Below are positions 1 to 60,573 of a DNA stretch of 64,000 nt, in pieces. Location: positions 23,368,828-23,432,827 of the forward strand of contig NC_087076.1 of the NCBI RefSeq assembly GCF_026151205.1. The letters are read 5' to 3'. This DNA comes from Bolinopsis microptera (lineage: Eukaryota; Ctenophora; Tentaculata; Lobata; Bolinopsidae). Below the pieces are notes generated by a model. That model ran no database searches and was not told the DNA's origin. It saw only the letters and a program-made list of their open reading frames with translations. Positions within the stretch are counted from its first letter, which is position 1. Each line of letters starts with the position of its first letter. Position numbers and translations under genes: made by a program.

Positions 1-1859
1 TGGGTTTTGTCCTTCTCTTTTCTGTGTCCCGTCCGTTTTGTTTTGTGAATTGTTTTGTAGGAGTGTTTTAATATTTTAAATCGAATACGTAACTCAATAG
101 GTTAATAATAACAAACACCATACTTATTTTAAATTAATTGATTAATATCGATATATAACCAACATCCAAACATTAATTTATTTATTACCTTTTATATATG
201 AGTTAAACGATCGATGGCTTATCTAAAATTTCGATAATGAACTTCATATTTATTAGTGCCGCGTGCTGATATATATTTGGGATTCAATCCCACCCAATCG
301 TGGCGATAACATACTTTTGTGCTTGGCCGGTTTTAGGTTTGAGGTTTGTGCTCCAAAAGTGGTAAATCGGGTGCTAGGTAAAGACTCTGCAGCCAACTGG
401 GTCCTTTTTGCCATATAATAATACAAAAGTAATAAATCAAAGTTAAATTTATTACCATTATTCACATCAATACTTATCATAAATTCTAAGATTGGCAACA
501 CAATGCGAAAATGGATGTCTTAATAAAAACTTGATTTTGTGTTCACTAATAATCTATGTACTTTCAAAGTTGAATTTAGTTAATGTATGAAATGCCACCC
601 TCATTGTTAGGGTTAAAATTTAATTCTTAAAAATTTTTTAAAATTGAGAAGATTGCTCATATGACTTAAAATTTATATTTTAGCATAAGATATCTAATTT
701 TTAAATAGTTGGTTACAGTTCTATGACAGTACTGGCATGATCAATTTTGTTGTGGCTGGTAAAAGGACCCAGTGCCTGTAAGGGCTTTACAGAACCCCTG
801 GGGCCCACAATGTGCTGGGATCAGGCCAGATGTTATATGTAGAGCAATGTATTTATTTCGGTGCTAGGGTACGTGGTATAGTGGTGGTTCATGTTTAATG
901 GGTCAGTTTTTCTTTGTGTGATAATGATCCATCCAGTGCTAGTGATGTGAGTAAATCATGCCCTTCCTACAATATATCACGTTTAACTATAAATTTGGTT
1001 TTTACCAAAGAAATACTGTGGCACTAAGTCAAGAATTTAAAATTTGTTCTCTCATGGGACTCATTGTATTGTTAAAGCGTTTTTTTTCCCCAGCACTATA
1101 CACAACAAAAACCTGATCGGCCCACGAGGAAACCACAGTCGCAGAACAGGAACCCCAATTCGTGATCCTCTATTCTGCAGATCGTGTGTATTTATCTATG
1201 AACTAAGCTTAATGCAGTTAGTAAATTTTCTGGATAATTAAAGTCGTTTGATTTGTTTATGTGTCAAAGTAATGTCCTGTTATCATATATTGGCATCCCG
1301 GTGGGCAAACACTCCACCCAAAGGCTAAGGCAAAACCCTTTCAGTGTTTCACCATACGAAGTTTAGGTGATTTGAACACTTACTTCAGCTACAACTCCTC
1401 ACCCATGGACGGCGAGACGTAGTGAGCTCAAAATATCTATAGCATTTACAGTCAGCAAACACTATACACAACATACATACGATAACTAACAATGTTCAAT
1501 GACATTACTCATTTAAAAGAAAATATAATCTGTATCTAATTTTTAAAATAAATTGAAGAATAATAATACCTGAAAGAGAGGAAGTGAAGGTGTGTGGGGG
1601 TTCGGGTGAGGTTAGATAGAGTAGGAAAACAACCAGGATCCTGGGGCCGCAGGATTTTATAACTTTGTTGTTGATGATTCGTTTTTTGTCGTCTCTTAGG
1701 TTAAATATAGGCTGATAACTTGTCATGGTTTTTTTTATTTTGCAATACACCGTGGTTTACTATATGATCTATGTTTACTAAATGCCAACCTATTTCAATG
1801 ATAATTCATTTGCATCAAAGTTGTAACTGCACCAAAGCTGTCGGTGCATATTTAGATTT
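1..1859. other. AT-rich spacer between units, no defensible gene
   Basis: No coding region I can defend. Around 720-880 (plus) a short open stretch beginning FYDSTGMINFIVAGKRTQL recurs in all four copies, and around 1,095-1,210 (plus) another follows a ccccag acceptor-like site. Other frames are equally open in both places and neither resembles a known protein. The equivalent stretches at about 17,989-19,825, 35,813-37,635 and 53,593-55,395 read the same. The 3' UTR and end of the minus-strand LINE probably lie within 1,450-1,860, but I cannot find its exact terminus. Confidence 0.5.
365..805. repeat. Imperfect inverted repeat, arms about 40-50 bp
   Basis: The reverse complement of about 365-415 (reading caaaaaggacccagttggc) and the plus strand at about 757-805 (reading taaaaggacccagtgcctg) are close matches, separated by about 340 bases. 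The pair recurs in the other copies, for example at about 18,350-18,400 with 18,733-18,780. It could be the ends of a small foldback element, but no target-site duplication is evident. Confidence 0.5.
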
Positions 1860-4800
1860 ATTGTTCTAACATTAGATTTCTTATGAATTAATTCTTGATT
1901 TTACTGATGGGAGTGAGAGAAAGTCTATTTATACTTGTTGACTTCGGTCAGTGAATTTCCAAATACTAGTTGATTTGATAGATGAAATAGTGATGGATGG
2001 AGTGGTTGGGATGAAGTAGTTGTCTCGTCTTGGTGACTGTTGAATAATGAGAACTTGAGACTGGTGATTGGAACTTATTAATTTATCATTTCCATTTATC
2101 AGTGAACTTATGAAGATTGTGTGGAACTGTCAGAATGTTAACTAGGTACAGCATTGTTTTACTGTGAGTCTAGTCAGAATTCTTTGCCTAACATCTGCTT
2201 GATGTACTTTCGGTCTTTTCCGAGTGATAGGCCTTACTCTGGCACTTGTTTGATTTATTGAAGTATGTAATCATTATCACCAAGGAGATAATCTATGATT
2301 TCTTTTGTGTTTTAAATATGGCTTCTAGTTTTTATGTGTTACTCCTCCCCAAACAGATATTCAATAACATAGGTGTGATTAAAATGGGTGGAGGTACAGG
2401 TCCCTTATATAGTTTTTTAGGTACTCAGCAGTCTTAAGTTCCACATAGTATACCTATCTAACATTTCCAATTTACGGTTTAACGCTCTTAAAGGAGCATC
2501 CAAGTTCAGTTTTTGTTCAATACTGGACTCCAGAAACTTAGTTTTCCCTCCACCTTTTTATTTAATATTTTATTTAGTGTCAGTTCTAATTACATTTGTG
2601 TTTGAATCTGGTTCATTTCTACAGTTCGGGCTTTAAAGTGGATTTTAACTAACATTTCTTTATGTTGATTTTGCAGCAAGTTACTATTCATATACTGGAT
2701 GACATGTGTAAGTATTTTTATTTGCTTTGCAGTTAAAAGTGTTTTTATACATTTATCTACAACAAATATGTTGGTTGTAATCGGCAAAAAAGTATAAACT
2801 TACCTAGGTCTGATAATCTGTATATTTCATGATGTTGATTAAGAAATGCAAGGGACCTAATATACCCCTGAGGTACTCCAAATATTACAGCAGTTTCGGA
2901 TCTTCTCCAGTACTGAATACATTTTGCTGTCTATTAGTAAGGTAACTGGCTATCATATTTATTTGCCCGTCCCCCGAATTCCATTATCATTCACTGTTTT
3001 TAAGTCAGTTTATCATGACAGATTGTGTCAATTGCTTTTCTTAAATCAATGGAAGTTGCCTAGTACGTGTTTTTTATCTCTTTAAGAATTTTTCAATGTT
3101 GTCGCAAGATGTTGAGTGCATGGTTGTCGAGTGATTTTTTCTTAAGCATATTGATGTTCATATAATAATCCTGCGACTGTAAGAAACTGTTAAGCCTGGA
3201 GAATTTGATTTATTTCATGTATTTTTACCGAATATTGCTATGATTGAGATAGGCTGTAATTTTCTAGAAGCTACAGCATTTTCTTTCTGAGTTTTGGACT
3301 TATTTTACCTACTTTTAGGTCTCGAAAAAGTCACTGTTGCAACTTTCGTAGTACAATAACGATTTGTTGTGGTGCTACATTTTGACTGATTCTGCCTTTT
3401 ACTTATGTACTGGTATGTCGCTAGCCTTGCCATTCTTAAGTTCCCGATATGTTCTTAGCCACCTCATCAGGTGAGCATCATGTAGCTATATATTTGCTGT
3501 ATTCGATTTAGTAAGAAGTCACAGGAACTTGGAAGCTGATTATTTGTAAGCTTCCTAGTTCTGTGTATGGCTGCATTAGTTAGATGCTAGGGTACAAAAT
3601 ACTTATGAATTCATTAGCGATAAACTCTGCGAATCAGTTATCTTTTCATTGTCTTTGGTAAAATATAGGTCTGATATCACGGTTTCGGTTGCACGAATTT
3701 TTATTTATCAGTGCCCTGGTTTTACTTGGATTTCCCTGAGTTTCCAAGTAAATTACTTGTCAGAATAATATCAAGATACAGCTTTTGATTACGAACCTTT
3801 TTTAGTAGACTTTCTATATGCTTTGTAGTCATCATAACGGTTTCTTTTATTACAGCAGATTTGAACACAGGCATGGCCCCTTTTGTGTCTGTTTCGCCTG
3901 GTTACACTTAACTTTTCCTGACTTTCGCCCCAGTCATATAAGCCCATGGCTGTGGTTATGAGGGCTATATCCCGCCAGTAATCCATGGTTGTTCTGGATA
4001 GTGCGCTTAGTGGTTTTGGTACCAGCTAGTTTGCAGTTTCGTCAATTGCTGTTTTTAAAGATATCATGAAGTAGTAAAATCTATAATTGGTTCAGTGGTC
4101 TAGTTTGTTACCCAAGACTTCAGCAAATGTATCAGTGGTTTGATTTACTATAGTCATATAATGAGTGTGCTTGTGTCATAATTTTTGGTCTTGCTAATTT
4201 CCAGTCAAATATTGTAATTAGGGAGGTGATGAGATATGTGTTCAGTTATGTCTCAGAGCAGTATCAGAGTCTAGGTCTTTTGTAATGATGTTGTCGATGC
4301 ACTGAGGCATTACATCCAGGCTTTTCATGGAGTTGCTAATGATTATCAATGGAAGAAGGCCTACTACTAAATAGGTACATCTTCATACTGTGCAATAATG
4401 CTACTGTGGTTACTATGGAGATTAATGTTAAATCATCGACTCCTGCCATAAAAAAAAAAAATAAATTGTGTGTATGTTTTGGTGCTTTATCAAGTATTGA
4501 CGTCTGTTCTTGGAGAGCTTGCCTCTGCATTGCCACTTGGAGGGCGGTATACTACTCCTATAGAAGTAGAATTCCTAGTGAACTTCCTATTGTTACCAAA
4601 GGGGTTTCTAGATTTTCTGTTACTTGATGAAAGAGTTGTTTTTTGGGGACAGCATTTGAAGTGTTCGGAATAGGAGCTACTCCTGAGCCTTTTTCTTTCG
4701 AGTCGTAGGTATCTTGATAGAAGCCTCTCATAGCCTTTGTGTGTTCGTACTAGTTTTTCATTTCAGGGCCTACATTGTTTCGCAAGACCCAATTACATGA

Positions 4801-4960
4801 GAATTTGTTAGTAAACCTAGCGATTTCAATTGCCAGCGAGTCAAAAGTTTGATTTGTTGCCATCAAGATTTTGAAATATTAGTGAGTTTTGCACTTGTAA
4901 TTCGTTAGCAAAGGTGCGGTATATGTCTGTTACTGAATATGAGTCACAGCTTTCAAAGTA
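1860..4960 (-). mobile_element. LINE (non-LTR) retrotransposon ORF2: APE endonuclease and reverse transcriptase, copy 1
   Basis: The minus strand encodes an endonuclease/reverse-transcriptase polyprotein, readable as a consensus of four copies. N-terminal APE-type endonuclease at about 4,850-4,200: motifs LAETN, a GVxxYRPP-like block, GDFNIN (near 4,430), then SCIDNIITN and DHISHHLPIF. Reverse transcriptase at about 3,500-2,500: NGKASDIP, NYRPIS, YGFRKNHST, FIDLSKAFDT, VPQGSVLGPLLF (near 2,870) and the catalytic FADD (near 2,780). The C-terminal region includes FLGVIID and a thumb/tail block ending near 1,870. It copies itself by target-primed reverse transcription. The layout, and the lack of LTRs, RNase H or integrase, indicate a LINE; the clade is not assigned. 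In this copy the frame is broken many times, but the breaks are not shared between copies. Confidence 0.93.
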
Positions 4961-5779
4961 ACTCAGAGATTTTACGTATTACATTCATCTGATCAGTGTT
5001 GTCTTCATTGTCTCATTCAGAAGCTTAAATGGGTTATAACGGTTTACTGCTAGGTGGGATACAATTATTGCAGTACAAGTAAACTTTTTTATTTTGTTTG
5101 TACTGGTGTTAAAACATCTAGAGTGAATGGACAATTTACAGTGGTTGCCATTCAATTTTAGATTGACCTAAGTAAATACTTTTTTAACTGTGGGACAACC
5201 TCTTTTTTAAGAACTTTCGTGTTGGAGGCTGATAGCCTTCAACATTGACGGCTGTCCTCACGGCGGATGAGAATAAAGTGTTGAACCTACCTTACCGTCC
5301 TCCTCCACCTCTTCCTCTATCAGTCCCTCCATGCATCCTAACATGGAAGTATTACGGATTTAAAGTAGAGTTTGGCCACTCCCTTTCCATTTGAGGTGCA
5401 GGTAATCACGTTCGGCCTTATCTGTCAACTTCCCTGGACATGGTTAGGCAAAGTAAGCCAGTGTTTATTGTCAGGAAGTCATCAAAGCATCAACGAATCT
5501 GGAACACCAAAGTTTTTGGGGAGTAGCTCACGCGAATAAGTTCTATAAATGTAAGATCTTTCCTATTTAAACAGCATTTCGAGTTGGTTAAAAGAGGGAC
5601 AAGAAATAACTTGGCGGTTGGATTGGCCTCTTGCATTTGTCAATCTTGAATTCTAGATGACTAATTATAGCAAAAAATTGCACGCTGAGATATTTAAACA
5701 GATGGTCTTCTATCATCATTTATACACCACACTTAATAACAATGTTCTTGTATCACATGCAAGGATAAGGGTTAATGTT

Positions 5780-6470
5780 CAATCTATTGTAGGAGTCCAA
5801 ACATCCGACAGGCAGCCACTTACCAAAGCTCCCTTTTGTGTTCCTCTCCAAATTTCATACCTGCTCCATTTGAATCAGAAGAAGATACAAGTATGGCACG
5901 ATTCTTTCCATCTATGATCTGAAGGTGGAACTATATCGTACTGCACCAGTGACTGACCCCTTCTGGATAGAGTGCTTGTAGTGAGCTGCTCCTTCTGGTC
6001 ATCCTGTAAAGATCTTGGAGTACACTTGTGCGTGTGAACTGGGTTGTTTCATTTCAGTGAAGAGATTTGCATCACTCAATGGGAAATGATGTCATATATG
6101 CTAGACTCTGGTTGTATCACCGTTTCTTAGTCTGTATTGTTCAGGCAGATACCCTGCCTTCTTCAGCAGCGGTTGTGATTCAACTCCGATGTTATTTACA
6201 GGGTTTCCTTCTGACAGAACTCCTATTGATTTTAGGACAAGTGTAAGCAATTTTATCAGGGATCTCACGGTTTTCTTATTCTCATCTCTGGATCGCTATA
6301 CTTGTACCTCTCGCAAAAGGTAAATACTGAAGCCCATTCTCCGAACTGAACTGAAGAGATTCGCAGTATTGGAGAAGGTCTGATTCTGCATTCCACTGTC
6401 GTTGAATTATTCACGGTGTCTACCACAGGTTTTTCCTCTGTTTTGATTGAAATAAATTTCGTGCACATAC
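5780..6470 (-). CDS. Unidentified minus-strand coding-like segment upstream of the LINE, copy 1
   Basis: A minus-strand frame starting with an ATG near 6,468 recurs in all copies. Its start is acidic, followed by blocks such as PILRISSVQSG and SFGERYKYSDPEMRIRKPW, then, after frame breaks, YPKGQSLC, SFTSDQIDGK and SDSNGAGMKFERITKEL. About 800 bases separate it from the endonuclease start, with partly open frames between. I do not recognise the protein. It may be ORF1 of the LINE (same strand, immediately 5') or a separate host gene. No CCHC knuckle or RRM is visible, so the ORF1 reading rests on position alone. Confidence 0.4.
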
Positions 6471-6479
6471 ATGAATGAA

Positions 6480-7264
6480 TGGTTATTAATTTAATTTTAT
6501 GTAGACCAAGCTCGTGACGGATGCTTCCTGGTAGATTCCAGTTCTTTTAGGCGGGGCACCCGACTAAAGCCAATTTAGATATAATAATCTATTTCATGAG
6601 AAATTAACAGAAAACGGAATACCAATCAAATAGATGATTATAGATGAGTTAGTACCATATTGAATATGCAAAATGCCCCCAACCACATAGTGTAAATTTA
6701 TATAGAATTCAATTCCATATTCCTCATTAAACCTCAATACCTAGTCAATATAATAGCCCAAGCAAAATTTAAATAACTTCTTATATACCTTACATTGTCA
6801 TACTACAAATGAATTAAAACATTTTAAATACTGCTTGACCTAGAGAATAAATTCTAAGCCTATAATGCAAGTGAAATATTTAGATGCAATTAATGTATGC
6901 CTAATGTGAGTATCATTTGTCATGTCCTTGTAAAAAAGTCTGTACATGAGATTTGAGTAAAACTAATATAGAAGAAAAAACAGGAAGTTGTCGTCTGTTG
7001 TAATATTATATAAAATATCTAGAATTTTATTAGAATATAAATATCATTCAGTCAAATTGGGTTGTTCAATATACTGTACATTATCAAATGTTAAAACTGG
7101 GTGATACAGTCACACAAAATAAAAATTTACTAAGTATGATATGTTAATAAATTAATGTGGTCCTATAAAAACTACCAACTAAGTATAATAGGTCAATAAT
7201 TAAAAGTGGTTTAATGGTGGTCTTTGATAGGAAGGTGCTTAGCATTTTATGCAGAACAGTTGAT
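6480..7264. other. AT-rich stretch, no gene seen
   Basis: Between the end of the readable OSGEP homology and the minus-strand segment below. Very AT-rich with many stops in all frames. The family's C-terminal block (normally with GGVGCN-like and FCIDNGA-like motifs) was looked for here on the minus strand and not found. Equivalent stretches lie at about 24,470-25,255 and 42,265-43,090. Confidence 0.6.
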
Positions 7265-8718
7265 GGATTATCTGAGGAATTGTCGTCTGTTGGGAGATAG
7301 ATCGCTCGTTCGGTTATCTCCACTGCATCGCGAACACTGTTTCTGGAAATTACAGTATTATTATGTTTAATCAACAGATAAATGCATTATCCGGCCAAGT
7401 TTCAACAAACTGAAAGTTAGTAATGGGTGACGTTTAATAAGTGAACCCATGTTAATTTTACGCACAGAAGATGATTTTGTTTTGCTTAACCCTGTAAAGA
7501 ATAACAAAGATCGCTTTAGGGCAGTCTCCTGCCGCAAGGCATCTTTACAGCAGTCCTTCAATGTGCGATAACAGTCTGGAAATTGCAGGGTGACGCCAAT
7601 TGAATGTTAGAGAATGGGATGTATATTGTATATGAAAGAAGATATTACATGATACAATATCCGAGCTTATCTTTACTATATATAAACGCGAGACGATATA
7701 TTTGTATGTATATATCCGTGCCCTTTTACTGACTCCACGGCATCAACTTTAACGCATCTTTCCGCAAAAACCGTTATAAGTTATACAACTGAAACTTTTT
7801 TTGACTGGGTCAATGCTTTAATGGCTTCAAATCAGCACTGAAAAAAATAAAATAAAAAATGGCCAAGGAATATTAATTTAGTGCCCAATAAAATAATAAA
7901 AAATTTTTTTTTGGGGTACTCCAAGTGGTTGTCAAAAAACGCGAATTAAATAGGGAATAATCACTTTTTGTCTATCGTGTCTTAAAACCACTTTAGTGTT
8001 AGACGGGGTTCCTGCTAGAATAAACATTCTTTGACCAAACCAAGGAAAAGATGACCATCCTTTCCTTTGACTCAGTTAAGGTAGCTCAATAAAACTTTTT
8101 TCCCTGTTTAGCAAGTGCTCACATGTTGTATCCTGGGACAGGGGTCGTTACTTACTTCATCACTCTGGCTAACCTGCATGTAGGCGTCTTATTTTGGAAT
8201 TAATTCGGCCAGAATCCAATGTTGAAATACCAAAGATACTAAGTTTGGCTATACAAAATAGTTTTTACGAAATAGAAAGCGGAGATTTACTCTTTTAAAT
8301 AATTTGATTAAACGTTTAAACTAAAACCGTTCCAAGTGCTTTGACGACTGCTAGTATCCAGGGTTTCAACGTTATCATGTATCTCTGTTTCATGTAATTG
8401 ATCAACCTGTGTATGGCCTCCGACTCGTAGAGTACTGTGGGGTTATTGCAACCTGTTCCTGGTCAGTATACACTACACCTATGCTTTATTGTATTCTGTA
8501 TACATCTGATGATTATATGTATTGATTTTCCTTCTTATTACACATCAATCTGCATTATAATCATTTTAAACTATTTATTATTTTGTTTTTCGGAATATTT
8601 TACCCACGTATTGATTTCCTTATCCTTGGCAGAAGTATTGTAAAAATATCTTTTCCTTCGTAGATTAAACAAAATAAGTCAAGGCTGTAACTCAATTCAA
8701 CTGAGGGAAAGGGGGGGG

Positions 8719-8761
<43 letters not shown>

Positions 8762-9364
8762 AAAAAAAAAAAAAAAAAAAAAAAAAATGGATTGAAATCT
8801 GTTTTCACCAAAACTGAGAATATCATTGAAGAAAATAAAGATTAAATTCACAACAACATGTAATACAGACCTGTCTCACCCATTCTCAAAATGAGACGAT
8901 ACATTGGTTAAAAGGCATTGAGTGGAATGTTCCAGGTTGCTCCAGAGAGAGGTGCGCGCGCTACACGGCAGTGCTGGACATAGCCGGCGCTCCCATCCGG
9001 TCTTTAGTATAACTCACACAGTCTATATCGGTTATTGATAGACCACCTGTTCCTGAAAAGAAGAGATACGGTGTTAAGCGCTCGTTTTTCCATACAAAAC
9101 TACACATCAAGTTTCAAGTATGGCTCGGTGAAAGTCCATAGATTGAGTATGTTAAGTTTTAAAACAGCATACTTAATCGATAGCCTGTTTGAATAGTTTG
9201 AGGATATTGTCTCGGTGATGTTGCGCGGTGTGACGTTGGTAAGACCGTTGACCGGGGGTGCACAGTAGGGTGGTCGGGGGTTGGACAATACTTCCACCAT
9301 CCGCTCAAATCCCTACTCCTTTTTACTTGTTTGCATCTTCCTTCAAACCGATTGAGAGTACCAT
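7265..9364 (-). CDS. OSGEP: OSGEP/Kae1 homologue (KEOPS tRNA threonylcarbamoyltransferase), C-terminus not found, copy 1
   Basis: Catalytic subunit of KEOPS, which makes t6A at position 37 of ANN-decoding tRNAs. Six minus-strand exons read as consensus. E1 (about 9,364-9,185): ATG, then GFEGSANKIGVGIVRDG and a TARHH-like block. E2 (about 9,055-8,870): YTKGPGMGAPL, ARTLAQLWN, VNQCIAHVEMG. E3 (8,460-8,330): NPTVLYVSGGNTQV to GNCLDR. E4 (about 8,174-8,039): FARVLKLSNDPCPGYNIE, YTVKGMDVSFSG. E5 (about 7,575-7,491): LSHIEGTAV, CTKADLCFSLQ. E6 (about 7,342-7,297): ETVFAMLVEITERA. Then the frame reads about ten unrelated residues to a stop. The family is about 335 residues; about 250 are visible, and the last 85 or so, which hold a metal-ligand Asp, are missing. 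The first His of the HxxxH metal motif reads Gln here. It is the last gene of the collinear minus-strand cluster, about 210 bp after WDR55. A poly-A insertion lies in intron 2. Confidence 0.9.
8711..8787. repeat. Expanded homopolymer: G8 followed by about 69 A
   Basis: A run of eight G, then A from 8,719 to 8,787 with one T at 8,760. At the same place copies 2 and 3 read only about gagaaatg and ggaaatgg, so the run is private to copy 1. It falls in an OSGEP intron. It is best explained as a local consensus or read error that extended a short A tract. Confidence 0.9.
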
Positions 9365-9575
9365 TGTTTCAGCTAACTTTAAGATGGAAATTATTGTGTT
9401 GATTGTTGCGTACTATTCGTACTATTTATTTAGTATATATAATCAAATTGATTGAGAACAGTTAATTAGGCAGGTTAAATACCATACTATGGTCAATTTT
9501 ACGGTAAATAGAAATAGTTAATATAAAAAGTCAACGGTAGTCTATACTTCTCTTTAACCGTTCACTATAGTAAGA

Positions 9576-10826
9576 CTAAGCTAAGTTGCTGGAAATAAAT
9601 CCGCAGTCTCGTTCGTACTTAATTTCCTTCGAACTAATATGTTTAATTTTCTTTTTCTTAGGTTGCTCATCTTCTGACGATTCTGACTCTTCATCATCAT
9701 TATCCTCTGAATCACCACTATCCTTATCACTGTCCCTCAACAGAATGTTTTTAATATCCTCATCCTGTTTTCAACGGGACCACTGCCCTAACAAATTAAT
9801 CATTCTATTGTCATGATCTCTCTTCATCATGCGACAAACTACAGGCCCTTATAGAGTTATCAGAGTGATCCCAATGTGGCGTCAGGGGTTTGTGAGGGAA
9901 AGAGGGTGGATGGAGGTAGCTCGGATAACACCGTCCATACATCCTAAAACTAGAATATCATAAGAATAACACAACCACGTATTCCACGCTCACTTCCTCC
10001 GAAAGGGTATCCTGTCTGATATTCCCCCCAGTTGTCCCACGGAAATATGTTCAACACCCTCTCCGTCCCCGCAAACAACTTACGTTGGTTCGCTCCAGTC
10101 ACATGTTAACAGCTCACTGTCTCATTCGTCAGAACGTGCTATGAGTTTGCTTTGTGTCTTGGTTCCAGACTAGAGAGGCGCCATCTCCAGATGCAGTACC
10201 ACGGGTGGATCCTGTGGATATCGACTGAGAAGGCGGCGATGAAGTGTCGTGCTTGGTTGTATCATCACGATGGGTTCTCTTTTGTCAGTTCCCACAATTT
10301 ATAACCTGTAATATTTGAAAAGACAATTAGTAAAGTTTGTTATATGCACAAGGCTCTTAATTAGGAAAGGATTTGAATGTATTTTGACTTTTTGAGGGAG
10401 GGAATCAGCAAAGATATTTTCAGGAATTATTACTAACCTCACAAAAACATTCCTTAAAATAACTGAGCTTAAAAACTAAAGAAGTATAAAACAAACTTAC
10501 CCCTTCGTCATCCCCAGTAGGCGAATACTTCCCATCCCTGACTTCTACAGTGCATACAGCGGATTATCGTGAGGGCATTGATACCTATGCGGTTCTTCCT
10601 AGTCTCAATATATCTCACACAAATGATTGTCACTTGAAATGGACAGGAGTGAAGTGCCTGAAAACAAAATACGCGACAAGAGTCCGTGTGTTTGACCAGT
10701 ATATATTTTGGGAGATATATCTTGCAGGGACAGATAGACGATCTCACTCTCGATGGTGCTGACTGCTGTGAGGTCTGGGTCGGTGGGGATGATGTCGAAC
10801 GGGAAGGCTGTTTATTTGCGAGACAT
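9576..10826 (-). CDS. WDR55: WDR55 homologue (WD40 protein, nucleolar rRNA processing), copy 1
   Basis: WD-repeat protein of the WDR55/Jip5 family, which acts in the nucleolus in rRNA processing. Two minus-strand exons. Exon 1 (10,826-10,501) starts at an ATG reading MSTN, gives a first WD-like block, then FSEDGTHLISISSDKSFCVC and DIET, and ends FATGDDEG at a gtaagttt donor. Exon 2 (about 10,305-9,576) opens after an acceptor with IKLWDLKKR, then SASGDGRLSVWNHDKRKL, SKVVCGDGEGVLNIFTWDNW, VLGCMDGVIRAT, EALCLSHDEEL and SSHDCVVRVWKLDEDI. It closes with an acidic Ser/Asp tail and a basic PKKKKIKH stretch that looks like a nuclear signal. The intron position inside the ATGDD/LWD block and the motif order match the animal protein, which is about 380 residues; length is comparable. 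The frame is broken here by small indels. The start is the first consensus ATG in frame. Confidence 0.88.
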
Positions 10827-11356
10827 CTTTTGGGCTTCTTCATTGTGCTTTGTGTTCTTAATTACTTGTTGTCTACAATCTACTGCATGCTATCTGTAGA
10901 TCACTTTATTAATAACGGTCCGGATATAATGCTGGTATCGTGATTTATGCACTCCAAAAGCAAACATTGCAACAGTGTATGATATGATTCGAATTTTTGC
11001 CTTCAATAAAACACAGTGAAAAATTACATCTTGTTCGTATCTTCTTAACATTATAAAAATCAGTTCGTACTTTATAACTCACAATAAATAGGTAATATGG
11101 CTGTGGTAGACGTTAAAGTCAATAATATTTGTCAAAACTGTATTTCCGTCGTTGTGTGTCAAAAAAACTAGTAGTCTGTTTGAGAGTTTGTAGAAAATAT
11201 AACTGGGGTTAATTCAAGAGTTAATACCTTTTAGTCCATATCATGTGTATTTTGTAATCCCGATAACATTCTAGTTGACGTACTGTATTGAAATACTTTT
11301 TCAGTATTTTATGATTAAATCGTAGTTCAGAAACTCTGAATCTCAGAAAACTCATG

Positions 11357-12530
11357 ATCATTCTTTTGAATCCTCATGTCCGACGGGTTGTGTCTCCTTT
11401 TTTTCTTCTTTTTATTTTTCTTTTCTGAACTCCTCTTTTTTCCATGATCTGTATCTTTCTCCCTCGTGGATTGATTGACTTTTTCTTTTCTTCTTATTGC
11501 CTCTTCTTCTTTCGTCTTCTTCTTTTCTTTTTCGGAGTCTTCATCACTGCCACCACTAGTATCTTCTCCACTTTGCTTTTCATCTGAGCTATCCCTCAAC
11601 TCTTTTTGGTGTTGCCATCCTCATCCTGGTCATCGTTTGCTGAGGAATTATTTTAATTATTTATTATATTAATTGCCATGCCTAGCATGAAATATTTTAC
11701 TACTTACTTGCACTTGTGTAGGTTGTAGTAGCATTAGATCGGCGTTGTCTGCCACAGGCTATCCCGAATTAAGGAAGCTTGCTTCATCATTCATCAATTT
11801 ATTAATTGATATTTGTAATATACATCAATTTTATTGCTTGATTGGATTTTCAAAAATAAATGTGTAAGCTGAATCAAAGTATACTGATCGTTCATTACTG
11901 ATGGGCAAATCGGTCGATACAATTTTAAACGACACTTCTAAAACATAGCAATTACAACGTAGACCAACGAAGGATCTCTAGCTCAAAGGCTCAATTTACC
12001 TACCTTCTGCCGCATCATGTGATACATTGATCCTCGTGAATCTTACGAAGCTGTTCGTTTGAGGTTCCCTTTAGAGGCTAATGTTCACTCTTTATTCCTG
12101 TTTCGGTGACCATACTGTGTGCATCGCCAACATTGCATCACTTTTACCTCCTTCCCTAGTGGCATCCACAGCCCTTTTGTTGGGGCAGACTTCAGAATTT
12201 TCTCGCACTGCAAACGATAAACATACATTATGTGCCTAACTTATTCCCTTCGAAAACATTTTATCGAAATATCGTACCTGCATAGCCACGAATATAAAAT
12301 TATCAAAAGACGTATTTTAAAACGTTATAAACATATTGTACACTTGTTTGTTATAAACAAATTTACACGTTTTCACCTCGCTGTTCATCCGGCAGGCGGC
12401 TCACAAGTCTCGGGTTTCTGCTTCAGATCTGCTACGTGACCATTTCTAATGGATCTTGGTAGAACAAGTCAGTTTGTGTTAACTTGTTGGCTTCTTTTCT
12501 CGGAGTTTTGGAGCCAGGCGATCTCGAGCT

Positions 12531-12593
<63 letters not shown>

Positions 12594-12621
12594 TCGGGGG
12601 GATAATGAACCCTTCCGACAT
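11357..12621 (-). CDS. RP9: RP9/PAP-1 homologue (retinitis pigmentosa 9 protein family), copy 1
   Basis: Nuclear protein of the RP9 (PIM1-associated, splicing-linked) family. Minus-strand exon 1 (12,621-12,377) starts at an ATG reading M-V/S-E-G-F, then LAPKLREKSNKLKQLDLFYQ and a basic/acidic linker to a gta/gtg donor. Exon 2 (about 12,207-12,004) gives SAPTKGLWMPLGKEVKVMQC and the zinc knuckle C-x2-C-x4-H-x6-C (CWRC, GHRTG, DKEC), then NEQFRKMHEDPMYHMMRQKE and a gtaggt donor. The last exon (about 11,639-11,357) is acidic and serine-rich, then strongly lysine-rich, as in family C-termini. A further short exon may sit near 11,700-11,770 before an acttac donor, but its frame is unclear. Human RP9 is about 220 residues and this is similar. 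In this copy a 58-base poly-C run interrupts exon 1. WDR55 follows about 530 bp downstream. Confidence 0.9.
12533..12590. repeat. 58-base poly-C run inside RP9 exon 1
   Basis: An uninterrupted C tract from 12,533 to 12,590 followed by aattc and then the normal GGGGGG. Copies 2 and 3 read only cgagattggggggat or cgagttggggggat at this site, so the C tract plus aattc is a private insertion beside a natural G6 tract. It creates long Pro and Gly runs in translation that are not real protein. Confidence 0.95.
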
Positions 12622-13374
12622 TTTCGCTACAGGGTGGGATATTGTATAAACAATGGTTATTTTAGATGGTTTAGTGTCTGTAGGATGATGATTTAAACAA
12701 TTCCAGGAACGAAAACATAGAGCTTTACATAATAGAATGTATCGTGGCAAATTAAACCATAACGAGCTTTGAATATCTTGAATAATGGCCAACTTTATGT
12801 AGTCGTAAACGCGATTCTGATCATTAGTCAGCGAAATATAAACAGGATACTAATATTAAGAGCTTAGTTGGTCATAGCTATACTAACATCACATATACTT
12901 TCTTATCGGTACCAAATCATCATTTTCGTAGTCGGTTATGTAGCATGTTCTTGAAAAAGAAATGTATTAACTCACTCTAATAAATATTTTGAAATACAGT
13001 CGGAGAATTTAACTAAAAAGTCTAGGGGGTCCAAGGTGAAATTTTGAATTGTTTAATATTTAATCCCTTAATACAGACCTGTGAGCTAAAAGGTACAACA
13101 AAAGAGATCTTTGAAACTAAACTTAACTGTTATTAAACTATCTTCAATATATGTAATAATCAATTAAAACGTTATGAATAGATTAAAATTTGATTATCAG
13201 ATAAACTGTCTAGCAAAAACTTTTGGTTTTTTTTAAGATGAAATTTAAGGGTATTTAAAGTAATATTACAGTCTAAAACTGGTGCAATTTTTTATGTAAA
13301 TAAACGAGAATTATATCAGTTACTGTGGTGACCCAGAATAATTTATTCCCATTTCAACACCTAAAGTTAAATGT
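12622..13374. other. AT-rich intergenic region upstream of RP9
   Basis: About 750 bases between the RP9 start and the stop of the next minus-strand gene. No coding frame, RNA gene or repeat that I recognise. It would be the RP9 promoter, or an inter-cistronic spacer if the minus-strand genes are co-transcribed. Equivalents: about 30,471-31,204 and 48,278-49,014. Confidence 0.5.
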
Positions 13375-13950
13375 TTCAGGTGTCTCAACCTTGACAGTTT
13401 TACCAAACCTATCGGTCAGACTAGTCCCGCAAAGACAATCTGCTGTCCATCCACTGTCGGGTTGCCAGGGCATTACAAACAATATCGACAGTATCCTCAG
13501 GATGTTAAAGTTACTTACGGGTTGGGGTCAGTTGGAGCACATCAGGGGCCCGAACTAGACACGGTGTGAAGATGAAGTTTGACCGTGGCACTGGCAACTC
13601 CGAATGTGAGATGTCGGAACGACTTCGCGGGTGTTTTGTGCAAGAATGTGTGGCTTCCCAGATCTCTCCAGTGGCAAAAGAGATATCGTCATGATCAACC
13701 TGAAATATATTGTCATAATTGATTTTGCAATTATACATCTCTCTTTATTTATAAACTAAGAAGCCACGGGAGAAGTTAATTTATGGACGGTGATGCAATT
13801 AACTAACCAATAGCAATGATTAGAGATACACTCACAGCTAGGATTTATATAAGTTTTGAAATATTTACATTGCTGACGGGGTTCATCATTAACATCATGT
13901 AGTGAGCTTCTTTCCGTGTCTCTTTTTCTTTGAGCTCTCAGTTTGGACGT
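13375..13950 (-). CDS. Unidentified spliced minus-strand gene, 3' exons, copy 1
   Basis: Three minus-strand exons are supported by splice sites conserved between copies. One of about 82 nt (13,950-13,869) lies between a ttacag-like acceptor and a gtaaata/gtaagat donor and reads about LTEWLKERDTEMKA. One of about 182 nt (13,700-13,519) after a tttcag acceptor reads about LLATGEIWEAHTFCTKHPKS, then SNFIF and FGPLMCSIDTN, and ends at a gtaagta donor. A short last exon (about 13,430-13,375) after a tctttgcag-like acceptor reads about NDRFGKTVQG then stop. A further upstream exon near 14,010-14,100 (LGQVVRLLIADNIACSCM) is possible. I do not recognise the protein. It lies upstream of RP9 on the same strand and could be the first gene of the cluster. 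Confidence 0.45.
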
Positions 13951-14647
13951 CTTGTAAGTGATAATTTTAATTAGTGATATTCGTGAGTACGACTTCCGAC
14001 ATGGAACTAGCATGCAAGGAGCAGGCTATATTGTTCAGCGATGAGAAGTTATTGTACTTACTTGGCTATGTATTTTATGGTCAAAGTTTTAACCTTTTAT
14101 CAAATCGGTTTTATTATAAGGTAAAACGACGGCAATTGTGCAGATTATACAGATTGTCAAAATGTTAAGTCAATCACATAGCTTCAAAACAAGCTAAATG
14201 ATTCCGAATAAGAAGTTAGTTATATTTGTCGTCTGTACCCACCAAGTGTCAAAGGATGTGTGAAAGTAACAATTTCAACTGAACAATCGTAAATCCAGAG
14301 CCGTCGATTTACCGTTCTTTATACATGCACAGAGCATCTCCAACTACTATCAACTCACGACAGGTCTTGACATCTATTATACCTTTTTCTGAGTTAATTT
14401 GATAAAAATAAACCAAAGTTATCGTACTTAACATTAAGGTCACTGTTTTTTTCAATTAACTCACATTGTGATACATGGAGCAAAAGCTTCTCCTGTTCAA
14501 TTTCAACATCATATAAAACCCAGACAACTGCTTTTGTTTATACGTACCAGCTAATATCACTCAAGCAGCTCACGGGAATGGGTTTACAACTCTTGTCAAC
14601 ACTTGCGTTCGGATAGTTGGCCTTTTAAGGGAGGCATGGAGGCCAAC

Positions 14648-15037
14648 ATGGGCTCCAACGTAAGTAACTCCGCTGATATATCTAGGTATGATGTGTTTTG
14701 TCCGGAGGCGTGTCTGTCACCAGGAAGTATTCCTGTAATTAAATGGGTATTTACAGACACAATGTAAGACCACTTCAGGTACTGATCACTATTTGGCTTC
14801 TAAAAAAATAGCCAATTATATTTGTCACAATGGTTTGTTATAGGTCACATGGTATTTTAGACATGATTAAGTAGTACCATACCTTTGGCGACATAGCATT
14901 GATGATGCACTGGCAAAAGACAAGAAACATGGTGTAGAAATATTCTCTCATTTTCAGCCCCATATGTTCCTCTTGTTATTTTCTTCGTTGGGACATATGC
15001 CGTAGTACGAAGTAGCAACAGGAATATTTCCCGAAAA
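14648..15037 (+). CDS. 5' exons of an unidentified plus-strand single-pass membrane protein, copy 1
   Basis: A plus-strand ATG in a good context (ccaacATGG) gives MGSN and ends at 14,659 on a strong gtaagtaa donor kept in all three copies. In phase, a later exon (about 14,879-15,037) after a tatgtag acceptor reads YHTFGEHSIDDALAKVKKHG, then IFSHFQPHMFLLLFSLGLYA, then VVVVATGIFPE at a gtaagttt donor. Joined, this gives about 35 polar residues, one hydrophobic segment of about 22 residues and then a lumenal or cytosolic start: a signal-anchor or small single-span protein. Downstream exons were not identified. The gene points away from the minus-strand cluster, so the interval at 14,100-14,650 may be a bidirectional promoter. 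The family is not recognised. Confidence 0.45.
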
Positions 15038-15039
15038 GT

Positions 15040-15778: not shown

Positions 15779-15934
15779 GGGGGTGTTCACATAATACGTA
15801 ATCAGTTTTTGGAACATTTTTTAACCCCCCTTTCCCCTCCGTATCAGATTTCCACAAAGTATTGTGTCAAATTACCTATCGTTATTTTGGAAAACCTTCC
15901 TCCCTCGGTGAGTACGTAATTATGTGAGCGACCC
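15779..15934. mobile_element. MITE-like element with ggggtcgttcacat...gtgagcgacccc ends, copy 1
   Basis: About 156-164 bp element with terminal inverted repeats of about 22 bp. The consensus left end is ggggtcgttcacatattacg and the right end is close to its reverse complement (acgtaat...tgtgagcgacccc). The interior is non-coding with poly-T and C-rich tracts. Short elements with this kind of end are, to my knowledge, common in invertebrate genomes. No transposase is encoded. In this copy the left end has lost a base (gggggtgttcac). A target-site duplication is not clear. Confidence 0.75.
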
Positions 15935-16249: not shown

Positions 16250-16278
16250 TTTTTGTAGGTTTATAAACCTACCAAAAA
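16250..16278. repeat. Long near-perfect palindrome, copy 1
   Basis: Reads tttttgtaggtt, tata, aacctacaaaaa in consensus: 12-bp arms around a short TA centre. Copy 1 has one extra C in the right arm. It sits directly beside the CpG-rich patch. It could be a binding site or the stem of a structured RNA; nothing decides which. Confidence 0.8.
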
Positions 16279-17640: not shown

Positions 17641-17699
17641 AAGGTATAGCGCGCCAAAAACTTAAACATTGTATAACTTTTTCATTTCATTACCCAGCG

Positions 17700-53258: not shown

Positions 53259-55394
53259 CATGGGATAAGCGCAGCAAACTTAAACATTGTATAAACTTTA
53301 TCTTTTCATTTCCACTGCGTGATTTACCGTCGCCGATATAATGAAATGGCGCACGCGCTTATCCGTAACTTGCAGTCTTTTAGTTCTTTATATTTTATTA
53401 TTTGGTATCTCTTACGAACGTAACGCGAAAATAAGTTGTATCACACTCCCGGTTTTGGAACCTCAATGTTAACTGCAGCACTGTGCCAGCCCAATATACT
53501 CTAGAAGTATGATCACACCTATTTGAAATGAACAAGGATCCATAATTTAATATAATCAGATACTCATCAACAGCAGAGTTTCCGGTCCGTGTGATGTGTT
53601 GTCCTTCTCCTATCTGTGTTCCACGTCGTTTTGTTTTTGATGAAATGTATTGTAGTAGTGTGTTAATATTTAAATCGATCGTACTCAATTGTTAATAATA
53701 ACACAAAATCCAATTACTATTTTAAATTAATGGATTAATATCGGATATATACCAACAACAACATTAATTATTCTTTAATAACCTTTTATATATGTGTTAA
53801 CGCTCGATGGCATATCTAAATTGAATAATGAACTTCTATATTATTGTGCCGCGTGCTGATAACTTATTTTGGGAATCAATCCCACCAATCGTGCGATAAC
53901 ATACTTTGTGTTGGCGGTTTTAGGTTTGAGTTTGTGCCCAAAAGTGGTAATCGGGTGCTAGTTAACGCTCTTGCAGGCAACTGGCTCCTTTTGCCAAATA
54001 ATAAAACAAAAGTTAATAAAACAAAAGTTAAAATTTATTACCATTATTCAATCATACATATCATAATTTCTAATATGGAAAAACAATGCAGAATGGATGT
54101 CTTAAACTATATTTGTTGGCATAATAATCTATTTACTTTCAAGTTGAAATTTAGTTAAGTATGAAATGCTCCACATCATAGTTAGGGTTAAATTATAATT
54201 CTTAAAAATTTTAAAAATTGAGAAGATTGCTCTTTGATTAAATTTCAAATTAGCAAAAGATTTCTATATTTTTAAAAACTAGTTGGGTTAAGTTTTGGGC
54301 AGTACTGGCTTGATCAATTTTTTTGTGGTGGTAAAGGACCCAGTTGCCTGTAAGGGCTTTACGAACCCTGGGACCCACAATGTGATGGGATCAGGCCAGA
54401 TGTTATATGTAGAGCAATTTATTTATTTCGGAGTATGGTTACGTGGTATAGCTGGTGGTCATGTTTAAAGGTCAGTTTATCTTTGTGTGCAATTTTCATC
54501 CAGTGCTTAGTGTGTGGAGTAAATCATGCCCTTCTACATTATATCACGTTTAACTAATAAATTTGTTTTACCACTGAAATCTGTGGCACTAAGGCAAGAA
54601 TTAAAAATTTTGTACTCTCATTGACTCATTGGATAGTTAAAGCGTTTTTTTCACCAGCACTACTACACAACAAAAAACCTGTGGCCACCGAGGTCAACAC
54701 AGTCGCAGAACAAGGAAACCAATTGTGCTCGCACTCTATTCTGCGATCGTGTTTATTTACTTTAAACTAGCTAATTGCAGTTAGTAAAAATTTTTGGAAT
54801 CATCTAAGTCGTTTTGATTAGTTTTTATGTGTCAAAGTAATGGCATGATAATCATATATGTGTGATCCCCGGTGGGCAAACACTTCGACCCAATAGGCTA
54901 AGGCAAACCGTTTTCAGTGTTTCACCTTTACGATGTAGAGATTTTGAAACATACTAGCACCTACAAACTCACCCATGGGACGAGACGTCGTGAGCCTCAA
55001 AATATATAGCATATACCAGTCAGCAAACACTATACACACATACTACGAATAACAAACAATGTATAATGCCATTACTTCAGTAAATGACAAATATATTGCT
55101 ATCTAATTTTAAAAAAATTGAAGAATAAACCTGATGAGAGGAGAAGGAGAGAGGGGTTTGGGAGAGTTAGAGTAGGAAACACAGGATCCTGTGCGCAGGA
55201 TTTTAAAAATTTGTTGTATGATGATTCGTATTTTGTCGTCTCTTTGTATTAATATAGGTCTGATATCTTGTCATGGTTTATTCGCTAAAACTCCGTGGGT
55301 TTACTCATATGATTATGTTTACTAAATCACTATTTCATGATAATTCAAATTGCATCAAAGTTGTAACTGCACAAATGCTTGTCGGTCATTATTT

Positions 55395-58300
55395 AGATTG
55401 TAGTTCTAACAATGATTTCTTAAGATTATTCTTGAATATACTCGATGGGAGTGGAGTAGTCTATTTCACTTGTTGACTTACGGCAAGTGAGTCCAAATAC
55501 GAGTTGATTGATAGATGGAATAAGTGAGGATGGAGTGGGAGGATGAAGTAGTTGTCCGTCTTGTGACCTGTTGAATAAAGAGGGAAACATTGAGACTGGT
55601 GATTGAAATTTATTAATTTAAACATCTTTCAGTAAACAGTGCAACTTATGAAGATTGTGGACAGGGCAGGAAGGTATATCTTACAGTTTGGTTTACTGTG
55701 TTTCTAGTTCAAGAAATCTTTTGCCTAACATCTGCTTGATAACTTTTACGGTCTTTTCCCTAGTGATAGGCCTTACTCCTGGCACATGTTTTGAACTTTT
55801 TGAAGTATGAATCATTCTCACCAAAGTGAAATTCTTATTGCATTTCTTTTGTGTTTTAATAAATATGGCTTCTAGTTTATTATTGATACACACTCCCCAA
55901 AAGATATTCCATAACAGAGGTTGGTGTTCAAAAAGGGTGTGGTACAGGTCCTATATAGTTTTTTAGGTACACAGGTCTAATTCCACATGTCTACCTATCT
56001 CACATTCAATTTACGGTTTACCGCTCTTAAGGTGAGCATCCCAGTTCAGTTTGGTCAATAATGACTTCCAAGAAATCTTAGTTTCCTCCACATTTTTAAT
56101 TTCTAATATTTAATTTAGTGTCAGTCTATTTCATTGGTGTTTGAATCTGATCATTTCTAACAGTCGGCTTAAAGTGGATATATCAACATTTCTTTATGTT
56201 GTTATGCAGCAAGTTACTCTTCATATACTGATTGAACAAGTTTAAGAATTTTATTAGCTTTGCAGTAAAGTGTTTTTATACATTTATCTACAACAATATG
56301 TTGGTGTCATCGGCAAAAAGTATAAGCTTACCTAGGTCTGTTACTCTGTTATTTCTTTGATGTAGATATTGAAAAGCAAGGGACCTAATACTGACCCCTG
56401 AGGACACCAAATATTTACAGACAGGTTTTTTTTCGGAGTCTTCTCCAAGTTACTGATAATATTGTGTCTATTAGAAATGGTAACTGTGCTATCAATTTAT
56501 TTGGCCGTCCCCCGAAATTCCATAAATCATTCAGTTTTTTAAGCAGGTTTCATGACAGATTGTCAAAAGCTTTACTTTATCAATGAAGATGCCTAGTACG
56601 TGATTTTTATTCTCTTAAATGATTTTTTCAATGTAGTCGACAGTGAAGTTGAGTGCATGGCTTGTCGAGTGATTTTTTCTAAGCCTTATTGATTTTTCAT
56701 ATAATAATCCTTGCGACTGAAAGAAAACTGTTAAAGCCTGGAGAAATATGATTTTTTCAAGTATTTTTACAGAAATATTGCGAGATGAGTTAGGCCTGTA
56801 TTTTCAAAGAAGCTCAGACATTTTCTTTCTTATATATTTGACTTATTTACTACATTTAGGTCGTTTCTGGAAAAGTCACGTGTTGCATACATTCGTTTAC
56901 AATACCCGATAGTAGGTGGGCTAATTATGCATGATATGCCTTTACTATATGTACTGGTATGTCGCTAGCCTTGCCATTCTTTAAGTTCCGTTGATCTTAG
57001 CCACTCCTCAGGTGAGCTAGTCTGTAGTTTATAATTAGCTGTATTTCGGGAAATTTTTTAGGTAAGAAGTCACAGAAACTTGGAAGCTGATTTATTTGTA
57101 TCTCTCCTAGTTTGTGTAGGCTGCATTAAGTTTAGATGCTAGGGATACAAAATACTTATTGAATTCATTAGCTATAAATCTGCGAGCAGTTATCTTGCAT
57201 TGTTCTATGGAAACTATAGGTCTGATAATCACGTTTCTGTTTTGCACGAATTTTATTTATCAGTTCCAGGTTTTCTGGAAATTTCCTGAGTTTTCAGGTA
57301 ACTTCGTCTGAATAAATATTCAGATACAGCTTTTTTACGAACCTTTTTTAGAGCCTTTCTATATTTTTGTTTGTCATCACATAACGGTTTTTCTTTTATT
57401 ACAGCAGATAGAACACAGTGATGTGCCCCTTTTGTGTCAGTTTCGCTTTGTTTACACTTAACGTTCCGGACTTTCGCACCAGTCATCGTACAGCCCATGG
57501 CCAGTGGTTTACTTGAGGGCTTTATCCCGCAGTATCAATGGGGTGTTCTGGATAGTGCGCTTAGTGGTTTTGGGTACAGCTAGTTTGCAAGTTTTTCGTC
57601 AATGTGTTTTTAAATATATCATTGAAAGTTAGTTAAAATTCTATATTTGGTTCATTGTCTTGTTCTAGTTTGTTACCCAAGACTTCCGAAAAATTATCAT
57701 GTTGTTTGATTTACAATAGTCATAATTTTGAGTGTGCTTGTGAATATTTTTGGGTCTTGCTAATTTCTCCCAGTCTTATATTGTTAAATAATTGGGAGGT
57801 GATGAGATATGTGATCAGTTATGACTCCAGATGCAGTAACCAGAGTCTAGGTCATTTGTACTGTATGTGTGTCGATGCACGAGGCATTACATCCAGGCTT
57901 TTATGAGTTGATAATGATATTCAATGGAAAGAAGCCTCTACTTAAATAGGAACATTCTTCATATCTGTGCATTAATGCTACTGTTGGTTACTATGGAGAT
58001 TATAGTTAAATCACGCAATGTGTGTATGTTTTGGTGCTTTATAAGTATGACGACAGTTCTTGGTGAGCTTGTCAGCTTGCCACTTGGCAGGGCGGTTATA
58101 GTACTATATAGAAGTAGAATTTCCTAGACTACCTTATAGTTACAAAGAGGGTTTCTAGATTTTCTGTTACTTGTGAAGGGTGTTATTTTTGACAGCATTG
58201 AAGAGTCAGGAATTATAGAGCTAATCCTGAGCCTTTTACTTTCGAGTCGAAGGTTCTTGATAGACTGCTTCATAGCCTGTGAGTTGTACAAGTTTTTCAT

Positions 58301-58475
58301 TCAGGGCCTTCATTCGTTTTCAGCAAGTCCATATTACAGGAGAATTTGTTAGTTAAACCTAGCTATTTCAATTGCAAGCGGTTCAAAGTTTGATTTGTTG
58401 CATCAAGATTTTAAATTATTAGTGAGTTTTGACTTGTAATTCGTTAGCAAAGGTGCGGTTTATGTCTTTTACAAG
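55395..58475 (-). mobile_element. LINE ORF2, copy 4
   Basis: Fourth copy. The catalytic region (GSVLGPLLF near 56,380, FADD near 56,305) and the following KFLGVIIDQKLNWDAHL-type block near 56,050 are the cleanest of the set. Long frames also survive at 55,693-55,893 and 57,253-57,498 (connector with TGAKVR and CKQSETDTKGA). Confidence 0.92.
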
Positions 58476-59309
58476 AATAAGAGTCACAGCCTTTCAAGTA
58501 CCTCAGAGATTTTACGTATTACTCATCTGCATCTGTGCTGTCATCATTGTCTCATTCAGATAGCTTAAAGGGGTTATAAAACGGTTTACTGCTAGGTGGA
58601 TACAATTATTGCAGTACAAGTCAACTTTTTTATTTGTTTGTCACTGGTGTTAAAACATCTAGGGAGTGAACTGGGACAATTACAGTGGTAGATTTCAATT
58701 GATAGATTGACTAAGTAAATACTTTTTAAACTGTGGGCTACAGACCTCTTTTAATGAACATTCATGTGGAGGCTGATGCCTTCAACATGGAGGCTGTCCT
58801 CCGGCGGGATGAGAATAAAGTGTTGAACCTACCTTACCGTCCTCCTCCCCACCTCTTCCTCCTATCAGTCCCTCATGCATCTAACAAGGACAGTATTACG
58901 GAATTAAGTAGCAAGTTTGGCCACTCCCTTCCATTGAGGTGCAGGTAAATCCGTTCGCCATATCTGTCAAAGCCTGGGACTAGGTTAGGCAAAGTAAGCA
59001 GTGTTTTTGTCATGGAAAGTCATCAAAGCCAACAACGACTGGACACCAATGTTTTTGGGGCGTAGCTTCACGACGGACTAAGTTCTATAAAGAGTACATT
59101 TCCTATTTAAATCAGCATTTCGAGTTGTAAAAGAGGACAAGAAAATACTTGGGCAGTTGATTGGCCTCTTGAATTTGCTCAATCTTGAATTCTAGATGGA
59201 CTAAATTGGCAAAAAGTTCACGCTGAGATTTAACAGATGGTCTTATAACATCATTTATTACCCAAATAAAACAGGTTCTTGTATCCACATGCCAAGATAT
59301 GGGTTAATG

Positions 59310-59990
59310 GTCCATCCTATTGTAGAGTCCAAAATTCCGACAGGCAGCCACTTACCAAGCTCTTTTGTGATCCTTTCCAAATTTCATAACTGCTCCATTG
59401 AATCAAGAGAAGATAATTACTGGCACGTCTTTCCATTATTGATCTGATGGTGAAACTATATATCGTACTGCACAGTGACTGACCCTTATGGAATAGAGTG
59501 CTTGTAGTGAGCCGACTCTGTCTGGTATCCTGTAAAACTGGATCTTGGAGTACACTTGTGCGTGTGAATGGGTTGTTCATTTCAGTGAAGAGGATTTGCA
59601 TTCACCTCCAATGGAAAAGAGTCAATATGCTAGACTCTGGATGTATCACCGGTTCATTGTCTGAATGTTCAGGCAGATAACCCTTCGCCTTCTTATACGG
59701 TTGATAAAACATCGCTGTTTCATTCTGGAGTTTCCGTCGGCCACGAACTCTCATGATTTTCAGGCAAGTGTAGCAATTTTATCAGGGATCTCCACGGTTT
59801 TCTTATTCTATCTCGGGATCCGCTATACTTGTATCTCTCAAATGAACATATGAATGCCCATCTCTGACTGAACTGAAGAGATTCGCAGTAATTGGTGACA
59901 GGTCGATTCAGCATCACTGTTTCATGAATTCTTCCTACGTTGTCTACACAGGTTTTTCCTCATGTTTTGATGAAAATAAATTTTTGTGCA
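59310..59990 (-). CDS. Unidentified coding-like segment upstream of LINE, copy 4
   Basis: Last copy of this segment, 570 bases before the array ends. Frame pieces FTRTSVLQD and KGQSLC (about 59,480-59,580) and RIRKPWRSLIKLLHLPE (about 59,750-59,820) match the other copies. Confidence 0.4.
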
Positions 59991-60573
59991 CATACAGAAA
60001 TGGTGGTTTAATAATTTAATATATATGTAGACCAAGCTCTGTGCACGGGATGCTTCCTGGAAGAATCACAGTTCTTTTAGCGGGGCACTACCTAAAGCCA
60101 AATTGAGATATAATACTCTTATCCTAGAGAAATTAATCAGAAATCGAATACCACATCATAATAATTGATATATATGAGTTGATAACCATATTTACTATGC
60201 AAAATGCCCCAACCACATAGCTGTAAATTTATATAGATTCAAATGCCATATTCATCATTAAACCTCCATACCTAGTCCATATAATAGCCCAAGCAAAATT
60301 AAATACGTCTTTATTACTTACTGTCATACTTCAATTAATTAACATTTGAAATCTGTTGACCAGAGAATAATTTCTAAGCTATGCAGTGAAAAATTTAGAT
60401 GCATTAATGAATGCCTAATGTGGGTATCATTTGTCAATGTCTTCGTAAAAAAGCTGTTCAAGAAGATAGGAGTAACTAATATAGAGAAAAATTACAGGAA
60501 GTTGTCGTCTGTTGTAAAAGAAAATAAAATATCTAGAATATTAATTTAGAATATAAATAACTTTGCATTTCAG

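Follow-up and report, generated by a model that had tools for sequence, protein, structure and literature searches.

Background

Long-read gap closers such as LR_gapcloser, PBJelly and TGS-GapCloser leave fills of about 88% identity, with a change from clean to error-rich sequence; the mean identity of LR_gapcloser fills is given as about 87.7% (simulated reads; Drosophila, Arabidopsis and hummingbird) (PMC8848313). Reads carrying tandem copies of one template are known from the sequencing of extrachromosomal circular DNA after amplification (PMC9295135, PMC10462705), and 99.5% of the circles in the first of these sources lie within 3 kb. A recent tandem duplication in Arabidopsis ddm1, confirmed by long reads (PMC10462705), concerns a gene-containing unit with a breakpoint in an exon and no single-nucleotide polymorphisms (SNPs) between its copies. 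Each of these cases resembles in part a 64,000-nucleotide stretch of the Bolinopsis microptera genome (C5:23,368,828-23,432,827, C5 being contig NC_087076.1; hereafter the window), in which positions 1-60,563 are occupied by an array of head-to-tail copies of a unit that carries genes. The genome comprises 264,652,675 bases in 232 contigs, and other contigs are likewise designated C1, C2, C4 and C13.

The differences from these systems are also clear. Unlike the gap-closer fills, a single stretch of up to 102 kb, itself tandem, stands here in four places on four chromosomes, without any flank overlap found. The circular DNA reads were obtained after circles had been deliberately enriched and amplified, and nearly all circles of PMC9295135 are within 3 kb, whereas here the unit is 17.2 kb long. 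The ddm1 case has two copies and junction-crossing reads, whereas neither a clean junction nor a flank was found for the present array.

Recurrence of the same errors on other chromosomes

Window positions 1-60,563 very probably belong to 102 kb of unpolished long-read sequence misplaced in C5, whichever source molecule applies. This stretch recurs with its errors on C4, C1 and C2, and C13 holds a further patch of the kind. A 1.5-kb probe from one array copy (copy D, window 26,700-28,200) was 100% identical at C4:608,384 and C1:16,387,130 (all 19 candidates scored), and its copies numbered five each on C5, C4 and C1, two on C13 and, on C2, one raw copy and one clean copy at 87%. Two further probes, 34,200-35,700 from the same copy (40 of 824 candidates scored) and 42,300-44,300 (40 of 2,428 scored), were also 100% identical on C4 and C1, as were the fetched pieces when compared with C5, amounting to 9,700 bp of C4 and 2,800 bp of C1; a piece of 3,255 bp compared between C4 and C1 differed by one gap. 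On C2, the 13,324 bp of C2:4,527,722-4,541,045 were 100% identical to C5:23,373,756-23,387,079 (window 4,929-18,252, from copy B into copy C). As random errors would not recur by chance, the recurrence of private errors on C4, C1 and C2 shows that one sequence was pasted several times.

The patches extend over C4:564,970-657,199 and C1:16,348,992-16,429,045, and the C5 and C4 versions together cover about 113 kb of one source sequence without any exit into the C2 flanks. The patch in C13 (from 12,659,500 or earlier to 12,702,625) has the same unit and junction as on C5, but no stretch of 97% identity to it was found in the C5 array or in the fetched C4 end pieces; therefore, it carries errors of its own. 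The probe scores for the middle of a further copy (copy F, on C4) also differed from those of the C13 patch. The C13 patch may come from a separate read, or from elsewhere in the one read.

A real and very recent tandem amplification at the C5 place, with sequencing error as the cause of the differences, had been considered in the initial annotation and would agree with the single orientation, the single junction and the identity of the copies apart from errors. However, the presence of the identical private errors on C4, C1 and C2 refutes it, and the clean home of the unit on C2 and abrupt edges on C5 that are unrelated to the unit also speak against it, so that we consider it very improbable.

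Layout of the array on C5

Comparison of the window with itself revealed collinear copies on the same strand at offsets of about 17.8 kb, with pairwise identities of 81-83% and very many small gaps; the aligned pairs were 8-3163 with 17,996-21,124, 4-4389 with 35,816-40,193 and 4-7043 with 53,596-60,559. Each of the landmarks reported initially at 11, 17,999, 35,823 and 53,603, all in one orientation, falls on one of these pairs. The unit measures 17.2 kb in its clean form and 17.8 kb as written in the array. An array span of 1-60,560 had been proposed, of which the right edge holds, clean sequence starting at about 60,564, whereas window position 1 is not a true start: the array extends leftward for another 41.6 kb, to C5:23,327,196, and totals 102,196 bp on C5, or about 5.7 units. 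The features of the window are as follows; the coordinates of genes in copy D are approximate and were projected from C2.

1-60,563, plus strand: unpolished, error-rich read sequence, head-to-tail copies of the C2 unit, continuing left to C5:23,327,196
1-7,300, plus strand: array copy B, right part (the remainder lies left of the window), ending at a unit junction
7,301-25,279, plus strand: array copy C, corresponding to C2:4,101,525-4,118,752
25,280-43,120, plus strand: array copy D; probes inside it are 100% identical on C4 and C1
43,121-60,563, plus strand: array copy E, truncated at the patch edge (C2 about 4,118,505)
43,120/43,121, and likewise 7,300/7,301 and 25,279/25,280: unit junction, C2 4,118,752 joined to 4,101,525, with no repeat and no microhomology
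25,280-27,270, minus strand: copy D, OSGEP/KAE1 with its 3' end missing, the junction lying inside an exon
27,480-28,770, minus strand: copy D, WDR55 exons
29,250-30,600, minus strand: copy D, RP9-like exons, no family match
31,280-32,980, minus strand: copy D, exons of a UAA-family nucleotide-sugar transporter
37,600-43,120, minus strand: copy D, long interspersed nuclear element (LINE) region with a reverse-transcriptase open reading frame (ORF) and a PHD-finger ORF, the latter cut by the junction
60,564-64,000, no strand assigned: clean C5 flank, a dispersed repeat followed by sequence that shares 95% identity with a region near C5:22,702,000

Error profile of the copies

The copies are unpolished long-read sequence. 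They were compared with an anchor-based aligner with cheap gaps, suited to indels; figures obtained with MAFFT (71-76% between copies and 78-83% to C2) were dropped, as indels had been over-aligned as mismatches. A consensus was built from the six full copies among nine extracted pieces, the three partial ones being left out. Full copies showed 86.4-88.3% identity to this consensus, with 2.6-3.6% mismatches, 2.7-4.3% deletions (the top value being that of the truncated copy E) and 5.9-7.2% insertions, the last value being inflated because the consensus lacks some sequence common to all copies near positions 0-1,000 and 3,000-5,000. Against clean C2, seven copies divided into 28 blocks of 2.5 kb had 72-164 insertions and 60-102 deletions per block, insertions outnumbering deletions in 26 of the 28. 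An excess of insertions is a mark of PacBio continuous long reads (CLR).

The substitutions were strongly one-sided, with 185-337 changes from A to T per copy against 19-45 from T to A, and the former exceeded the latter more than 3.6-fold in every one of the 28 blocks. Double-stranded mutation hardly gives such a pattern, which therefore points to the reading of one strand, and its constancy along all blocks means that the read keeps one strand throughout the seven copies tested. Once oriented like the array, the full C13 copy had an A>T bias of the same sign as the C5 copies.

That the copies are old tandem paralogues diverged by 17% could be suspected from their pairwise identity of 81-83%, but this explanation is refuted: the copies differ by private changes with a strand bias, most of which are gone from the consensus, and over 10.3 kb the consensus and C2 are 99.5% identical. 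On C1, a LINE-region copy outside the array was 87-91% identical to each window copy, compared to the 81-83% found from copy to copy. The initial suspicion of error-prone reads of one sequence was thus borne out by errors that are private, indel-rich and strand-biased and that are repeated exactly on C4, C1 and C2 in the stretches compared.

Variation between copies and source haplotype

Shared variants were sought in 16,300 columns of the six full copies, with shuffles that preserved sequence context. At least two copies shared a non-consensus base in 230 columns (211 ± 12 expected), and at least three did so in 8 columns (14.1 ± 3.7 expected); with A>T changes set aside, 50 shared columns were observed and 48 ± 5.9 expected. 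The largest excess for a pair, that of copies B and C (31 vs. 23.1 ± 4.1), was unremarkable among 15 pairs. When only bases were shuffled and context was not kept, a small excess appeared (192 vs. 160.7 for the 4:2 pattern), which the context control mostly removed. As noted from the outset, therefore, there are no variants common to copies beyond the level of chance, and, as far as the test has power to show, the six full copies did not differ before they were sequenced.

The bases on which the copies agree against C2 were unevenly distributed. Left of 4,108,398, at least five of the six copies shared a base unlike that of assembled C2 at 44 of 6,838 sites, together with several larger indels, whereas right of 4,108,426 only 3 of 10,074 sites had a shared non-C2 base, all of them within 200 bp of that point. 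This contrast shows that the source molecule came from the C2 locus itself, and that assembled C2 departs from the source haplotype near 4,108,400.

The unit junction

At the junction, C2 position 4,118,752 is followed by 4,101,525 in a blunt join that leads from the PHD-finger/LINE ORF to the OSGEP exon. The native sequence differs both past the join on the left side and before the join on the right side, so that there is no microhomology, and a repeat bridging the ends of the unit was looked for at the junction and not found. When the joined native halves were used as a query, 18 places covered at least 368 of the 375 bases, all of them in raw patches (five each on C5, C4 and C1, two on C13 and one on C2), and no junction in clean sequence was present in the assembly (all 39 candidates scored). 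These places provide eight independent readings: five on C5, one common to C4 and C1, and two on C13. The sequence AG/ATCG, the stroke marking the join, was exact in six of them, and one C5 reading and the C4 reading differed by single-base errors; a single join fits all eight. As they agree on one join that has neither repeat nor microhomology, the sequenced molecule itself was probably head-to-tail.

A loop of one locus made by an assembler or gap filler, the other origin initially envisaged for the array, fits these readings less well, as there is nothing to loop through and the join is always the same. In its most explicit form, the program would have gone round the locus several times and strung together different error-prone reads that carry the same junction, which would agree with errors that are independent in each copy. 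But in addition to unit ends without repeat or microhomology, the error signature keeps its strand in 28 of 28 blocks, the same chain with the same errors stands in four places, and original molecules carrying the junction would still be needed. Thus, the misplacement of sequence from a molecule already in tandem remains our preferred reading, and chaining is unlikely.

The clean home locus on C2 and its genes

The only clean full unit found was C2:4,101,525-4,118,752 (17,228 bp), with other sequence on either side. Its minus strand carries OSGEP, WDR55, an RP9-like gene, a UAA transporter and the LINE region. OSGEP matched the TsaD family. Two exon pieces of WDR55 matched PF24796, each under the whole-protein cut-off, and the best structure matches were solved WDR55 chains. 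Family matches were also obtained for the UAA transporter, the reverse-transcriptase ORF and the PHD-finger ORF. The RP9-like exon gave no match in Pfam or among solved structures; the name, which follows the initial call, is tentative.

The left end of the unit lies inside OSGEP exon 4,101,419-4,101,583. In a solved relative 337 residues long, this exon aligns with residues 233-283, and each array copy therefore lacks the C-terminal part of OSGEP. The right end lies inside the PHD-finger ORF (4,118,645-4,119,565). WDR55, the RP9-like gene and the UAA transporter are apparently whole within the unit, as judged from ORF positions. Of the RP9, WDR55 and OSGEP genes once described as amplified, OSGEP recurs only in truncated form, its exon being cut by the junction.

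Two other features were observed nearby. In C2:4,122,487-4,138,064, parts of C2:4,106,510-4,111,076 and 4,120,322-4,122,482 occur a second time, broken into pieces 91-98% identical and with the LINE absent; this looks like an old duplication, or like the alternative haplotype assembled in tandem. At C2:4,095,718-4,098,478 there are two adjoining gene-like stretches with 84% DNA identity, whose translations are reminiscent of aerolysin-type pore-forming proteins.

Edges and flanks of the patches

The edges of the patches are abrupt. The contrast between raw sequence inside and clean sequence outside was checked, as to the outside, on the right flank in the window, where clean sequence begins at about 60,564. 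Over its first 479 bases, the dispersed repeat found there showed 95.7-96.7% identity and 2-3 gap openings in alignments with four other copies, which were themselves 96.7-99.6% identical to each other. Window 60,564-61,157 had been a candidate for raw sequence on account of matches of 88-89% to many copies, and was rejected because of these first 479 bases; in the lower matches, about 594 bases of the query were aligned to about 546 of the target, and the difference in length of about 50 bases explains much of the lower figure.

The dispersed repeat at 60,564-61,157 had at least dozens of copies in the genome, among the matches listed, and many of them had a match of about 40 bases on the opposite strand nearby; perhaps it is an element with terminal inverted repeats. 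Beyond it, window 61,156-64,000 is a repeat 95% identical to the stretch near C5:22,702,000, with a further copy near C5:21,469,510. On C4, long poly-C runs that look like sequencing junk were seen from 657,200 onward, directly after the patch.

Several points weigh against misplacement of one read by gap filling. No overlap between flank and read was found over about 100 bases at three edges (C4 right, C1 left and C1 right). By BLAST, neither the C5 flanks nor the C4 flanks (300 and 1,470 bp) matched the C2 region, and the C1 flanks had only short matches to it (29-104 bp), none of them at the edge. The anchoring of the read by a gap filler is thus unexplained, which counts against the simplest account of this type. 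Raw CLR reads have, moreover, been tabulated with deletions above insertions, perhaps counted from the other side (PMC5964698). Finally, the analysis rests on assembly sequence, from which the source read itself is inferred, and identity from patch to patch was compared on probes and end pieces.

Probable origin of the head-to-tail sequence

With regard to the source, we lean towards a circle of C2:4,101,525-4,118,752, cellular or made in the library. Such a circle would arise either within the cell or when a sheared fragment ligated to itself; a strand-displacing polymerase would then copy it round and round to give a tandem read, which a gap-filling step would insert uncorrected. Repeated copying of one circle would explain at once the single junction, the single strand, the lack of variation and the absence of a clean junction. 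The 17.2-kb unit with its blunt join between exon and LINE would also fit a sheared library fragment closed on itself.

Alternatively, the read may stem from the inside of a true, recent array on one C2 haplotype at 4.10 Mb, of which the assembler kept a single copy, and may then have been misused as filler. This explanation is compatible with the misplacement, as it concerns only the source of the read, and it accounts for about 113 kb of head-to-tail sequence without exit into the C2 flanks, for a C13 patch with other errors and the same junction, and for the 44 of 6,838 vs. 3 of 10,074 differing sites that show the origin at this locus. In addition, long reads have revealed young tandem duplications of gene size whose copies have no SNPs, as in the ddm1 example (PMC10462705). 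On the other hand, a germline array of at least seven copies would be expected to give many junction reads and a polished contig, and no clean junction was found among the 39 candidates, all scored; nor was variation detected within the array. We therefore regard a C2 array as possible but rather doubtful, and the circle remains the source that we favour.

Consequences

About 331 kb of the assembly is misplaced raw sequence from one C2 locus: 102 kb on C5, 92 kb on C4, 80 kb on C1, 13 kb on C2 and at least 43 kb on C13. These patches would lead to wrong copy numbers and to spurious, broken duplicates of WDR55, RP9 and OSGEP. A simple test for such artefacts, which requires no reads, is to look for the same private errors at unlinked places. 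The array is not a real feature of the C5 locus, and its description is useful as an assembly correction. The head-to-tail source molecule may be the remaining point of interest: that it reflects real biology, either as a 17.2-kb gene-carrying circle or as an array of recent origin with at least six to seven copies, derived from C2:4.10 Mb and with OSGEP truncated, is plausible, though we would not presume it.

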